Below, one piece after another: positions 1,319 through 13,112 of a stretch of 43,518 bases of DNA. The notes below the pieces were generated by a model that did not search any database, was not told the DNA's origin, and was given only the letters and a program-made list of their open reading frames with translations. A program made the translations under genes and the position numbers. Each line of letters starts with the position of its first letter. The first letter of the stretch is position 1. The DNA comes from Thermodesulfovibrionales bacterium (lineage in GTDB: Bacteria > Nitrospirota > Thermodesulfovibrionia > Thermodesulfovibrionales > SM23-35). Location: positions 1 to 43,518 of the forward strand of contig JASEEX010000014.1 of the NCBI GenBank assembly GCA_030019415.1, in the 5' to 3' direction.

Positions 1319-1652
1319 ATGTCAAAAAAATCAGACAAACGCAAAATTCATTCACAACATATATTTGAGCTAAGGTATAAGCCATTTATCGAGATGCTCG
1401 ACCTTAGAGGACATATAGCAAGTTTATTGTCTGAGAAATTAGAAATGCCTCATTGGACTGTTGGAACAAACCGCGTCGATATTGCATCGGATGATAAAAG
1501 GGAAAAATGTTTTGTTAGCTTTAAGAATTTAGGTTACGTGCTAATAAAACCAGATTCTCCAAATCGAACATGTCCCAGATTTAGTTGAAGTAAGAGCGCA
1601 TGAACGTAAATATAAAAATTTGTTATTGCAGGTGGTTAAAAGGCTAATATGA
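1319..1652 (+). pseudogene. Small unknown ORF, apparently frameshifted near 1550
   Basis: The frame opening at ATG 1319, with a good GAGGTAAGG site upstream, encodes 89 residues and stops at 1588 with an unlikely tail. From about 1551 the +1 frame instead reads QIEHVPDLVEVRAHERKYK and LLLQVVKRLI, ending at a TGA (1650-1652) that overlaps the helicase ATG at 1649. That overlap is typical of an operon, so the ancestral gene probably ran from 1319 to 1652 and has lost or gained one base between 1547 and 1560. The family is not recognised. A sequencing error or programmed frameshift is also possible. Confidence 0.5.
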
Positions 1653-4600
1653 CTACAAGAAGGGCTTTTGGCAGGACATGGTGGGGGAATGCATGGGTTG
1701 AGGCGATGGAGAGGATTGACTTTAACACCAATCGCCTGCCGAGAGGAAGGAGATATGCCAATTATGGCAGAGTAAGGGAGATAAAGGTTGAAGATGCAAG
1801 TGTTTTTGCCAGGGTGCAGGGATCGAGACCAACGCCTTATAAAATTAAAATAAACCTCAGTCAATTCAGCAGTAAACAGACTAAAAAGATAAAGAATATC
1901 ATCTCCTCAAATCCCTCTCTCGCATCTGAATTGACCCTGGGGAAACTGCCAGAGTCAATCCTCGATATTCTTGATAGACAGGGCGTTCATCTTCTGCCAG
2001 GGAAATGGGGTGACATACATGCAGACTGTTCCTGCCCTGACTGGGCAAATCCCTGTAAACATCTTGCAGCGGTCTACTACCTTTTAGCAAATGAAATTGA
2101 TAAAAACCCCTTCCTCCTGTTTAACTTAAGAGGTCTTTCAACAGAAGCACTTGTTGCAGCAGCAGGACTAACAACTGCAATCCCTTCTGAAAAGCAGACA
2201 CAGCAGAATAATATCTTTACCCCTCTTTATCAATTGAATCTCGATGAAATGACATCCAACATAGAGGAGCCTGACCTCTCCTTCCCTGCACTTGACATTA
2301 TCTCTCTTTTTGCCCTTCTTCCTGATAGACCACTTTTTTATCCTGATGGTGATTTCAAAAAAATACTGCTTCATTCATATAAAAACGTTATCAGTGCAGC
2401 AGAAACGCTCAGTATTGAGCAGGAATTTCCATCTCTGAAGAATATCGACTTTTATTTGCTCTACATAAGTGAACCCCGCACCAAGGCTTTAAACCCGTGC
2501 CCCGACACCAAAAGTTTTTGGTGCGGGGCGTGGCTTTCTGTGGTGCGGGGTGAAAGGACTAAGGTTTTTATCCCATCAAATGAACAAAATTTAGAGATCC
2601 TCCATTCTCTCTTTCCTGAAATAATGTCATCCCGAAACCGGAAAGCCATTAGAAGGAATATATCAATCAGGGTTCCGGAAATACATAAAGACCGCATCCA
2701 GCTTGTTGAAAGGAATGGTATTACCGTTCCTACAGGTTTTGTTTTTGATCTTCTTTTGGGCCTGCCACTTGATACAACATTAGAGAATAATTCTCCTTCG
2801 TCACTATTTTTAAATGCCTCCACTTCTGTTGCCCTTGCGTTGATTCGTTCGGCATCTTTCATACCCGAAGTGGTCATGAAAAACAGACACGATTTTTCAA
2901 TCCGATATGTACCGCTCATTCATCATGAAAAAATTCAAAAGGCAATCGAATATCTCACCCAGATCAAACCCCTCATCCTGGGCTTCAGAGAAGAAGACGG
3001 AAGTGTACTGAACGGCAAAGGAGTATATGATGTTCTGTCAATGATACTGACCCATATTTTCTTTCGTTACGCAGAGGGGGTCAGACAACTTGAGGGTGAT
3101 AAACTCGGCAGGGCTTTTTTTGCCGATGATACCTATACATCAGAAAAGTTTGAAGAGATACATACAGGAAAGACGGTTGCAGACTGGCTCGAAAGGCTCT
3201 CTATCAGAAAAAAGGATATCTCGCCAGTAATCAGAATCGAGACATCAGCAAATGACACCTTCAGCCTCCATATTGATATTGAAAACAAGAAAGACCCTCT
3301 GTCATCTATGTTACCCCTTTCTACCATCTTTGGAAGTAGAAAGACTCTGTTTTCCTGCCCCTCAGATGCAGTCAGGACAGATGTCTTAAGGCAGATTACC
3401 ATCGCATCCGACTACATACCAGAGCTGAAGACAATAGTAAATGAAAAAGGGGGAAGTTATCTCATCCTCGACCTCGAAAATACCGCGCGGTTTCTCACAG
3501 GGTCTTCGAACATACTCAGCCTGCTCGGCATCCGGCTTGTTATCCCTAAGGAACTAAAAAATCTTGCAGTTCTACGCCTTGCCATCAAAGCAAAAAGTAG
3601 CGGAAGGGAAAAGGCTGTCTCTTATCTCTCTCTCGATAATCTTCTCGACTTCTCGTGGGAGATTGCAATCGGAGACAGTGTAATTTCTGAAGAAGAATTC
3701 ATCAGGCTCGTGAAATCAGCGAAAGGTCTTATTAAATTCAGGGACCAATACCTGCTACTGGAACCTGAAGAGGTTAGCAATATACTGGATAAACTCAGGA
3801 AACCCCCGCCACAGCTTTCTCCAATAGAGGTTATCAGGTCAGCACTTACAGGTGAGGTCGATGGGACACTTTTTAACCCGGATGAAGCACTGAAGAGTAT
3901 TCTGGATGATCTGTTAAAGATTGAGGATATTACCATCCCATCAACACTTAATGGACAATTAAGACATTATCAGGAGAGGGGATTTAGATGGCTGTACTCC
4001 AATGCAAAAAAGGGTCTCGGTTCATGTATTGCTGACGACATGGGGCTGGGCAAGACCATACAGGTTATCACACTTCTGTTAAAGCTCAAAGAGGATAAAA
4101 GGTTGAGGCATCCCGCTCTTGTTGTCTGTCCGACAACCCTCGTTGGCAACTGGTATAAGGAATGTCAGAGATTTGCACCATCTCTGTCCTTACTAATTTA
4201 TCATGGTAATGAAAGAAAGCTGGCATTAAAAAATAAAGATGTGGTAATCACCACATACGGAATCCTGAGACGTGATATCGAAAAATTCACTCAAAGAGAA
4301 TGGGGGCTTGCTGTTATTGATGAGGCACAGAATATAAAAAACCCAGATGTAGATCAGACAAAAGCTGTAAAATCCGTTAAGGCAAATGCCTGTATTGCTA
4401 TGAGCGGAACACCTGTTGAAAACAGACTTGCCGAGCTCTGGAGCATCTTCGATTTCATTAACAGGGGGTACCTCGGGAACCTCCCGGTCTTCCAGAGAAG
4501 ATATTCTGTTCCAATAGAAAAATATCGAGATAAAGAAAGGATTGATATGCTCAGACGTGTAACAGGGCCGTTTATCTTAAGGAGGGTCAAGACAGATAGA

Positions 4601-5356
4601 TCCATTATCAGTGACCTACCCGAAAAAGCAATCTTCAACGAATACTGCTATCTCACTAAAGAGCAGGCTTCTCTCTATCAGCAGGTCATTGAGACTACAA
4701 TGCATGAAATTCAAAACAGCGAAGGAATAGAAAGGCGCGGGCTCATATTCAAGCTTATCACTTCACTCAAGCAGATCTGCAATCATCCTGTCCACTATTC
4801 AAAGAAAGGGAAACCCCTCAAAGAGCTATCCGGCAAATCAGAAAAGACCATGGACCTGATTCAAAAGATTATCTCCATGAAAGAGAAGGCCTTGCTTTTC
4901 ACGCAATATAGAGAAATGGGTGAGATTCTCGTTGATATGATCAGGCAGGAACTGAAAGAACAGGCTTTTTTCTTTCACGGAGGCATACCAAGGTTGAAAA
5001 GAGACAGCATGGTCGAGGATTTCCAGCAAAAAGATTTACACAAGGTCATGGTGATCTCCCTGAAGGCCGGAGGCACAGGGCTGAATCTTACCAGGGCAAC
5101 AAATGTAATACACTATGACCTCTGGTGGAACCCTGCTGTAGAGGCACAGGCAACAGACAGGACTTACAGAATCGGCCAGGAAAAGAATGTCATGGTTTAC
5201 CGCCTCATTACAATAGGGACATTCGAGGAAAGGATAGACGAGATGATAAAGGCAAAGAAAGAGCTTGCCGATTTAACTGTTGCCACAGGTGAGAAGTGGA
5301 TTACAGAGCTTTCTGATAGGGAGCTTAAGGAGATATTCAGTCTGAGGGCATGTTGA
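1649..5356 (+). CDS. SWIM zinc-finger SNF2-family helicase/translocase
   Basis: A 1235-residue protein. The N-terminus (FGRTWWGNAW) is typical of SWIM-domain proteins, and the SWIM finger CSCPDWANPCKH lies at residues about 127-138 (CxC...CxH). A long middle region follows, then a complete SNF2 ATPase: DDMGLGKT (about 794), VIDEAQN (about 890), SGTPVENRLAELWS, and the C-terminal lobe with GGTGLNL (about 1140) and DRTYRIGQ (about 1170). SNF2 enzymes translocate on double-stranded DNA and remodel bound protein. The gene starts at an ATG with AAAAGG upstream and overlaps the next gene by seven bases. Residues about 275-301 are encoded by two nested palindromes and look like a late in-frame insertion. 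The role is probably DNA repair or defence; the exact substrate is unknown. Confidence 0.9.
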   Translation: MTTRRAFGRTWWGNAWVEAMERIDFNTNRLPRGRRYANYGRVREIKVEDASVFARVQGSRPTPYKIKINLSQFSSKQTKKIKNIISSNPSLASELTLGKLPESILDILDRQGVHLLPGKWGDIHADCSCPDWANPCKHLAAVYYLLANEIDKNPFLLFNLRGLSTEALVAAAGLTTAIPSEKQTQQNNIFTPLYQLNLDEMTSNIEEPDLSFPALDIISLFALLPDRPLFYPDGDFKKILLHSYKNVISAAETLSIEQEFPSLKNIDFYLLYISEPRTKALNPCPDTKSFWCGAWLSVVRGERTKVFIPSNEQNLEILHSLFPEIMSSRNRKAIRRNISIRVPEIHKDRIQLVERNGITVPTGFVFDLLLGLPLDTTLENNSPSSLFLNASTSVALALIRSASFIPEVVMKNRHDFSIRYVPLIHHEKIQKAIEYLTQIKPLILGFREEDGSVLNGKGVYDVLSMILTHIFFRYAEGVRQLEGDKLGRAFFADDTYTSEKFEEIHTGKTVADWLERLSIRKKDISPVIRIETSANDTFSLHIDIENKKDPLSSMLPLSTIFGSRKTLFSCPSDAVRTDVLRQITIASDYIPELKTIVNEKGGSYLILDLENTARFLTGSSNILSLLGIRLVIPKELKNLAVLRLAIKAKSSGREKAVSYLSLDNLLDFSWEIAIGDSVISEEEFIRLVKSAKGLIKFRDQYLLLEPEEVSNILDKLRKPPPQLSPIEVIRSALTGEVDGTLFNPDEALKSILDDLLKIEDITIPSTLNGQLRHYQERGFRWLYSNAKKGLGSCIADDMGLGKTIQVITLLLKLKEDKRLRHPALVVCPTTLVGNWYKECQRFAPSLSLLIYHGNERKLALKNKDVVITTYGILRRDIEKFTQREWGLAVIDEAQNIKNPDVDQTKAVKSVKANACIAMSGTPVENRLAELWSIFDFINRGYLGNLPVFQRRYSVPIEKYRDKERIDMLRRVTGPFILRRVKTDRSIISDLPEKAIFNEYCYLTKEQASLYQQVIETTMHEIQNSEGIERRGLIFKLITSLKQICNHPVHYSKKGKPLKELSGKSEKTMDLIQKIISMKEKALLFTQYREMGEILVDMIRQELKEQAFFFHGGIPRLKRDSMVEDFQQKDLHKVMVISLKAGGTGLNLTRATNVIHYDLWWNPAVEAQATDRTYRIGQEKNVMVYRLITIGTFEERIDEMIKAKKELADLTVATGEKWITELSDRELKEIFSLRAC
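2473..2551. repeat. Nested palindromic element inside the SNF2 gene (site A)
   Basis: The outer inverted repeat is ACCCCGCACCA (2473-2483) with TGGTGCGGGGT (2541-2551). Between them is a second palindrome in which GCCCCG(A)CACCAAAA pairs with TTTTGGTGCGGGGC, with one bulged base. The reading frame stays open through all 79 bases and encodes about 26 residues that look foreign to the helicase. The ends share CCCCGCAC with the copies at 10506, 12966 and 32434. Confidence 0.85.
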
Positions 5357-9819: not shown

Positions 9820-10461
9820 CTATTTAAATATCTCTCCTGTTTCCTTATACCAGAGGAGAAGGTCAAGATGGGAAAAAGGTATATCTATCTGTCTTGAAAA
9901 GGCTATTATCCTTTTTTCTATGTCTAAGTATTTTGACCTGCTTAGAGATTCTGGGACATCCTCTATTATCCCGAGCTCCTTTAAGTTTCTGAGTATATGT
10001 CTGTCAAGGATGGCGATTTTTTCTCCGAAACCTATGTTTCTAAGGAAATGGCTCGCCTCTTTGTAACCGAGACCTGTTATGTTTTTGACTAACCACTCTC
10101 TACATTTATGGATATCCTTGAATTTGCTGAGGATAGATTTCATACAAACCCTGCCATTCTTGGAGAAGAAATTTCTTGCCTTTAAAAAGTACTCGGTTTT
10201 TTTGTTTTTAAATCTCACATACCTTATCTCTTCCTTGATTTCTTCAGCAGACCCCCTTAGCAATAAGCTTTTTCCCCTGAGCCTTTCTATGGCTTCCCAG
10301 CAGACCTTTGCTTTAGATTGGGGGGTAAGAATACAGAAAGCCAACTCGGCGAAGATTTCTTCATCACCCCTGAACCATAGATTTTTGAATTCCTTTAATC
10401 TTCGCAGTATTTCTCCCTTTTTAAGGGCATATATCCTCTTTATAGGATTGTATATATTCAC
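9820..10461 (-). CDS. ogg: Ogg2-type 8-oxoguanine DNA glycosylase/AP lyase
   Basis: The start chosen is GTG at 10461, with AGTAAGG five bases upstream, giving 213 residues, the usual length for this thermostable-type Ogg family (COG1059). The open frame extends to ATG 10551, but that stretch is largely palindromic repeat. Helix-hairpin-helix region ITGLGYKEASHFLRN carries the catalytic lysine; AILDRHILRN carries the catalytic aspartate. ELAFCILTPQ and LDLLLWYKETG match the family ends. It excises 8-oxoguanine and cuts the abasic site. It stops next to the ORF remnant ending at 9817, transcribed convergently. Confidence 0.85.
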   Translation of the reverse strand: MNIYNPIKRIYALKKGEILRRLKEFKNLWFRGDEEIFAELAFCILTPQSKAKVCWEAIERLRGKSLLLRGSAEEIKEEIRYVRFKNKKTEYFLKARNFFSKNGRVCMKSILSKFKDIHKCREWLVKNITGLGYKEASHFLRNIGFGEKIAILDRHILRNLKELGIIEDVPESLSRSKYLDIEKRIIAFSRQIDIPFSHLDLLLWYKETGEIFK

Positions 10462-10484
10462 TGAAGCCTTACTCTGATCTTTCT

Positions 10485-10634
10485 TTATCTTTGAGCCTTC
10501 TGTAAACCCCGCACCTTGCAAGGTGCGGGGTAAATTTCCTCTCCAATACATTTCTCAGCATACTTACACCACTGTATGCATGACTCCAGGTCTTCATATA
10601 TGGTAAATCCGCATATGCAGACGTTGTGAAAAAT
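10485..10634 (-). CDS. Small Cys-rich ORF between fumarase beta and ogg, start unclear
   Basis: A minus-strand open frame of 49 codons encodes CICGFTIYEDLESCIQWC, then KYAEKC, a C-x-C...C-x3-WC-x5-C pattern that suggests a metal or Fe-S site. No ATG, GTG or TTG start is present after the upstream stop; ATT at 10632-10634 is the only near option. Its C-terminal codons run straight into the 26-base palindrome at 10506-10531, so the original end has been replaced. It lies just downstream of the fumarase genes on the same strand. It is either a very small protein or a remnant of a larger one. Confidence 0.45.
   Translation of the reverse strand: MFHNVCICGFTIYEDLESCIQWCKYAEKCIGEEIYPAPCKVRGLQKAQR
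10506..10531. repeat. Perfect 26-base palindrome (site B)
   Basis: ACCCCGCACCTTG at 10506-10518 is followed immediately by its exact reverse complement at 10519-10531. It has the same CCCCGCAC ends as the copies at 2473, 12966 and 32434, but with inner arm CTTG/CAAG. It lies in the C-terminal codons of the Cys-rich ORF and in the upstream extension of the ogg frame. Confidence 0.9.
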
Positions 10635-12857: not shown

Positions 12858-12965
12858 TAACTGATTCCTTTATTCACCCTAATATCTTGACTTAAGGAGC
12901 ACCCAATTTTTATTATTTTTTATTTGGGGCGTAGCGCAGCCTGGTAGCGCATACGGTTCGGCTTG

Positions 12966-13074
12966 CCCCGCACCAAACTTGTCTCGGGGATTGGCTCAGA
13001 GGTAGAGCACTCGGTTCGGGACCGAGAAGTCACCGGTTCGAATCCGGTATCCCCGATGGAGGTTTGGTGCGGGG
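12966..13074. repeat. Palindrome element carrying a tRNA (site C)
   Basis: A 13-base perfect inverted repeat, CCCCGCACCAAAC (12966-12978) and GTTTGGTGCGGGG (13062-13074), encloses a whole tRNA-Pro gene. Its ends match the other CCCCGCAC copies in the window; the inner arm here is CAAAC/GTTTG. Confidence 0.85.
12985..13056 (+). tRNA. tRNA-Pro (anticodon CGG)
   Basis: A full cloverleaf: acceptor CGGGGAT/ATCCCCG, D arm GCTC-AGAGGTA-GAGC, anticodon arm CTCGG-TTCGGGA-CCGAG, variable AAGTC, T arm ACCGG-TTCGAAT-CCGGT, discriminator A. The 72-base gene has no encoded CCA. The anticodon CGG reads CCG proline codons. Every stem pairs without mismatch, so it looks functional although it lies within a palindromic element inside another tRNA-like gene. 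Confidence 0.93.
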
Positions 13075-13112
13075 GAACTGGTGTCGAAGGTTCAAATCCT
13101 TTCGCCCCGACT

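Follow-up and report, generated by a model that had tools for sequence, protein, structure and literature searches.

A tRNA-Pro gene nested within a broken gene for the same tRNA, and a probable palindromic mobile element with tRNA cargo

At positions 12925-13110 of the window, a 43,518-nucleotide stretch of the forward strand of a Thermodesulfovibrionales bacterium contig (JASEEX010000014.1), one tRNA-Pro gene lies within another. The outer gene is a tRNA-Pro(CGG). The original prediction placed its break in the anticodon arm, and the cut can be positioned after anticodon base 36. The 5′ part (12925-12961, plus strand) comprises the acceptor strand, the D arm, the 5′ anticodon strand TACGG and the loop as far as C34-G35-G36; it is preceded by a putative promoter recognized from its sequence (TTGACT, 18 bp, TATTAT; 12887-12916, plus strand). 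The 3′ part (13075-13110, plus strand) begins with a damaged anticodon strand, GAACTG, and continues with an intact variable loop, T arm, acceptor strand and discriminator base; CCA is not encoded. Base pairing bears out the proposal that the outer halves match in the acceptor, D and T arms: 12925-12931 (TGGGGCG) pairs with 13103-13109 (CGCCCCG), and no damage is seen in the D arm (GCGC/GCGC) or the T arm (GAAGG/CCTTT).

The insert is ∼117 bp in length and contains no protein gene. It starts with a left junction, CTTG (12962-12965), which by sequence is the reverse complement of the CAAG right junction in other members of the element group. This is followed by the left palindrome arm CCCCGCACCAAAC (12966-12978), an intact inner tRNA-Pro(CGG) (12984-13057, anticodon 13017-13019) and the right palindrome arm GTTTGGTGCGGGG (13062-13074), all on the plus strand. 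The arms match exactly over 13 bp, and the inner tRNA is called both by ARAGORN (12984-13057) and by Rfam (12985-13056, 68.8 bits against a gathering score of 29), in agreement with the perfect 13-bp inverted repeat around an intact tRNA-Pro(CGG) that had been described. Inner and outer genes share anticodon and orientation. No direct repeats are present at the junctions of this insert.

The arm pattern, with up to two mismatches allowed, occurs five times in the window, where 0.49 occurrences are expected. The cassette is predicted to fold into a closed stem with the inner cloverleaf on top (−64.2 kcal/mol, z = −6.5), and the minimum-energy fold of the whole locus (z = −5.05) retains the outer acceptor, the D arm and most of the T arm. 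Because of the arm-pattern excess and the fold z scores, a chance origin of the arrangement is excluded. Among the ∼45 distinct tRNA genes examined in this genome, GC-rich flanking inverted repeats are found only around the inner tRNA-Pro(CGG) and a copy of tRNA-Ser(CGA); the remaining genes have arms of 4-7 bp, except for one AT-rich pair of 12 bp.

An uninterrupted homologue of the outer gene, proposed earlier as a check, is present in relatives at the same moaA-adjacent locus, and in genome G019 the same moaA-side flank follows the uninterrupted gene. The outer 5′ part differs from these homologues by two bases. Within same-family genomes, identity is 89-95% for the 56 bases around the 5′ part and 94-100% for the 3′ part (33 bases). 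The TTGACT...TATTAT promoter is common to four of the five relatives compared, with TTGACTT and TATTAT kept upstream of the uninterrupted tRNA-Pro(CGG) in L006, L007, L008 and L009. Damage to the outer gene is confined to the 3′ strand of the anticodon arm, where GACCGTG has become GAACTG. After simple joining of the outer halves, TACGG faces GAACTG and the anticodon arm is not canonical, as had been predicted; joining gives no normal tRNA call either here or at the tRNA-Ser locus. The outer gene had been regarded as dead or chimeric. Judged by sequence comparison, it is one native tRNA-Pro(CGG), since both halves match a single native gene, and the chimera is therefore set aside; with an anticodon arm that cannot be restored, the best reading is that the gene is dead. 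Neither a relative with two ordinary adjacent tRNAs nor a false assembly join was found.

The genome has one tRNA-Pro gene with anticodon TGG and one with GGG, and CGG was found only as the inner gene. The inner tRNA is thus intact and the sole tRNA-Pro(CGG) found, as is expected of the rescue copy in a home-and-rescue element. Over 56 nt it is 77-79% identical to the tRNA of most of the same-family genomes listed. Its best match within its own class is 79%, and that among the sampled Patescibacteria (333 genomes) is 85%, to a tRNA-Pro(TGG). These identities make a foreign source likely.

A second nest is found in the same genome, next to tadA, where a tRNA-Ser(CGA) lies within a tRNA-Ser(CGA) remnant. 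Arms TCCCGCACCAAAA and TTTTGGTGCGGGA enclose the inner tRNA-Ser(CGA) (contig C133, 39988-40110). The relative G006 has an intact tRNA-Ser(CGA) beside tadA. Outside the arms, GAATGGGGCGGTCTCGAA corresponds to the sequence of the G006 gene from the D loop to the anticodon, with 18 of 18 bases equal in this 5′ remnant, and CAAATCCCTGCCTCTCCGCCA corresponds to that from the T loop to the end. Missing from the outer tRNA-Ser are the acceptor strand, the D stem and much of the 3′ half; without acceptor strand and D stem, the gene is therefore dead. A foreign origin of the inner tRNA-Ser was considered and is not demonstrable, as Patescibacteria and its own class give similar best scores.

The palindrome is also a dispersed repeat. 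Element termini (CCCCGCACC...GGTGCGGGG) are conserved, and the 13-bp exact arms constitute terminal inverted repeats. Besides the tRNA-bearing pair, the genome has 12 palindrome-only copies, and of 32 genomes searched, 15 contain the palindrome without a tRNA. Among the 23 palindrome-only copies that have enough flanking sequence, nine are bordered by perfect 4-bp target duplications (TTTA, TTCA, TAAA or TGAA in every case), and because of these duplications the palindrome is considered a transposable element. The centres of palindrome-only copies vary freely, and the interior bases of the arms are variable yet still palindromic. Two palindromic elements without a tRNA in the window lie in open reading frames. 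A related element at 2474-2550 has TGAA on both sides and is in frame (77 + 4 = 81 bases) within the open reading frame at 1649-5356, which looks like an SNF2-type helicase. The copy CCCCGCACCTTGCAAGGTGCGGGG (10507-10530), with the target duplication TAAA, is inside the 5′ end of the open reading frame at 9820-10551 as called. Related genomes also have ∼104-bp elements (L097-L110) with the same ends and several internal hairpins in place of a tRNA.

Public genomes were scanned with the pattern GCACCAA...T-loop...TTGGTGC (palindrome-tRNA-palindrome), and 59 stretches matched. Records came from many groups of Patescibacteria, and from Elusimicrobia, Endomicrobia, Omnitrophota and TA06. Including the two of the genome itself, 42 are credible elements, in which long palindromic arms enclose a called tRNA (selected for arms ≥10 bp or a C-rich extension, plus L176 and L177 added by eye); they come mostly from Patescibacteria and Elusimicrobia, with a few from other lineages. 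Among viral genomes, a strict scan gave two matches, both to the same non-tRNA stretch, and a loose scan gave no long CCCGC arms among the matches listed. As judged from the flanks shown, about nine of 43 called tRNA genes are nested in one Elusimicrobia genome and about eight of 41 in one Moranbacteria genome; these include tRNA-Trp, and two of the nests use a different palindrome. A tRNA-Asp is nested in another palindrome, CCCGAAAAAA/TTTTTTCGGG. The original prediction had described its single nested locus correctly and had missed the shared anticodon, the second tRNA in the genome, the ∼40 other loci and the status of the inner tRNA as sole gene.

Cargo and target match. In nearly all credible elements, the sequences outside the arms are parts of a tRNA whose isotype is that of the inner one. 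Scores between an outer tRNA and its own inner tRNA have a mean of 61.3, as opposed to 34.5 (SD 1.5) when partners are permuted, and the best of 10,000 permutations reached 42.8. The top-scoring inner tRNA for an outer one has the same amino acid in 40 of 42 cases and the same anticodon in 34; with the element itself excluded, the figures are 32 of 38 and 23 of 32 respectively. Outer pieces were joined automatically with many trim and filler variants. Calls for outers cut in the anticodon loop were scattered and uninformative; the outer anticodon was used only where calls were consistent and the cut lay outside the anticodon or left it readable. In all five such loci (L147, L160, L161, L184 and L187) it is that of the inner tRNA. 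Wherever inner and outer tRNAs were aligned, they point in the same direction; insertion sites vary between anticodon, T and D loops, and several loci have lost parts of the outer tRNA.

A 4-bp target duplication accompanies only two of the 42 tRNA cassettes: TTCA in the T loop at L160, and CAAG at both levels of L147. Many anticodon-loop members have TTCA before the arms and CAAG after them. Several T-loop members have CCTG or CCCG before the arms and TGAA after, which are approximately the same ends inverted. A constant CA target was considered for the cassettes and dropped, as other members lose CGCA, CTCA or CATA. Two loci are triple nests, with three tRNA-Glu(CTC) one inside another at L202 and three tRNA-Gly(CCC) at L147; at both, re-insertion took place at the same position of the same tRNA on two levels. 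The middle and inner tRNAs of L202 are ∼95% identical and their cassettes have spacer and arm sequence in common, and the outermost tRNA is more diverged.

These properties are probably best explained by a hairpin transposable element, a palindromic MITE with one complete tRNA gene as cargo, that broke and replaced a resident gene for the same tRNA. The element would enter the native gene and break it, and the cargo tRNA would take over its job. The outer promoter would drive the inner tRNA, and the usual tRNA end-processing enzymes would excise it from the transcript, the palindrome stem perhaps serving as an insulating or RNase III-type processing stalk, and the outer RNA would be discarded. 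If expression from the outer promoter is under selection, the shared orientation is accounted for. The match between cargo and target would arise mainly through survival of same-anticodon, same-orientation insertions only, because other insertions in an essential single-copy gene would presumably be lost; more broadly, selection, homology and capture at the palindrome centre are all candidate causes of the match. Divergent and often foreign cargo would be kept because identical direct repeats would probably recombine away. The reading favoured originally, in which a mobile palindrome that had captured a tRNA killed a tRNA gene, is the best fit to the uninterrupted outer gene in relatives, the dispersed repeat with duplications and the lack of a restorable anticodon arm. 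Counted against transposition are the scarcity of duplications (two of 42 cassettes, with none at the window copy), the uniform orientation and an arm variation that also fits capture. In addition, no free-standing palindrome-tRNA cassette was seen outside a tRNA, and unguided transposition should yield such cassettes. More tentatively, the element could be a natural break-and-replace mobile hairpin. On this view it would home to a tRNA gene and destroy it, leaving in its place a foreign or recoded tRNA with an identical anticodon; it would thereby be hard to lose, and it would cross bacterial phyla and stack into nests.

The tRNA might instead have been acquired in place, although this is considered rather unlikely. 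A cargo-free palindrome would have entered a tRNA loop, and a later break at its centre would have been repaired by copying a tRNA gene of the same kind, with selection for restoration of the lost tRNA. Such a history would account for the position of the tRNA, always at the dyad centre, for the common occurrence of palindrome-only copies with variable centres in the same genomes, for arms that vary yet remain palindromic, and for nests in other palindromes such as that of tRNA-Asp. At L203 the inner 3′ flank (CCATTAGCAAAT) is the same as the outer 3′ flank, as if an intact allele had been copied. However, in the window and at several other loci the outer tRNA is closer to a tRNA of another organism than to its own inner tRNA, and therefore the donor was not the allele of the cell itself; the spacer and arm sequence common to the inner and middle cassettes of L202 also suit movement of a whole cassette. 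It is improbable that the nests are homing cassettes, in which intact tRNA genes are cut by a trans-acting nuclease or recombinase and homology of the outer halves lets the nested allele be copied in, with a recoded inner tRNA as rescue. Cargo that matches its target, inner tRNAs that differ from the outer as recoded rescue copies would, and two-level re-insertion at L202 and L147 are as such a process predicts, but no candidate nuclease was found, insertion loops differ and parts of the outer tRNA are gone at several loci.

Processing at the RNA level has very little probability; it would set the inner tRNA free, and the 13-bp stem would keep the outer halves together for rejoining or for use in split form. 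Archaeal split tRNAs have similar GC-rich pairing at the junction, and the window locus shares this feature, along with intact outer acceptor, D and T arms and a nested fold that is the predicted minimum. Nevertheless, no pairing is possible between the two strands of the outer anticodon arm, the tRNA-Ser outer gene lacks the parts listed above, and triple nests would demand repeated rejoining. Hardly credible is an artefact of draft assemblies (the window genome consists of 166 contigs) or a pair of ordinary neighbouring tRNAs, as the same architecture is found in many independent assemblies and at a second locus of this genome, and the inner tRNA sits within the outer one and not beside it.

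The hairpin element with tRNA cargo has partial likenesses among known systems. Palindromic MITEs and REP-type repeats, including Rickettsia palindromic elements, are generally known as short dispersed palindromes, some in frame in genes, with target duplications; by description, the nested element is set apart by a cargo that is a whole tRNA and a target that is the gene for the same tRNA. Integrative elements likewise target tRNA genes with function preserved, but they restore the 3′ end of the host tRNA itself, whereas in the nests a different complete tRNA replaces a target that stays broken. An integrative element was rejected for the window, as the insert has no integrase or other protein gene and no direct-repeat attachment sites. 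Group I and archaeal tRNA introns occupy the same anticodon-loop position as many nest members; the nests differ in having no intron family match or splicing product, and in also using T-loop and D-loop sites. A group I or II intron was rejected, since the inner tRNA is the sole Rfam match to the locus at gathering thresholds, with no catalytic core, and an archaeal-type intron or split tRNA likewise, with no family match and no canonical anticodon arm after removal. Synthetic home-and-rescue and cleave-and-rescue drives likewise disrupt an essential gene and supply a recoded copy as rescue (e.g. PMC7968924); they are engineered in animals with a CRISPR nuclease, and the nested tRNA elements have no known nuclease. 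As far as the published account of a Caldiarchaeum tRNA-Thr locus describes it, the tRNA gene is disrupted by a mobile element, so that a fragment lies close to a complete tRNA of that kind; the locus is archaeal, with a 1.8-kb recombinase-encoding element, and is not nested and without a palindrome in the account (PMC3293823).

None of the compared systems carries a same-anticodon replacement inside the gene it has broken. No prior description was found in the open-access papers searched, and subscription papers or preprints may hold one. Genes for tRNAs are among the most conserved. In the nests, such genes have been broken time and again, and a same-anticodon, often foreign-looking gene has taken over at the same site; in two genomes about one-fifth of the tRNA genes are affected. 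Turnover of tRNAs by this route, if real, is invisible to standard annotation, because only the inner gene is reported, and the element would be a natural example of one that becomes indispensable through bringing a substitute for the gene it destroys. The way in which cargo is matched to target becomes testable. Automated tRNA calls should be read with caution, as they hide broken genes around intact ones.

Some individual loci display further properties of cargo and palindromes. The inner tRNA-Met genes of L161 and L180 are near-identical (70 of 72 bases), one located in a T loop in one organism and the other in an anticodon loop in another. L175 and L183, of the Moranbacteria group, look reciprocal by eye, the outer tRNA-Ala of one resembling the inner tRNA of the other. 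In addition, the outer remnants of L146, L159 and L203 have other, unrelated palindromes in their D or T loops.
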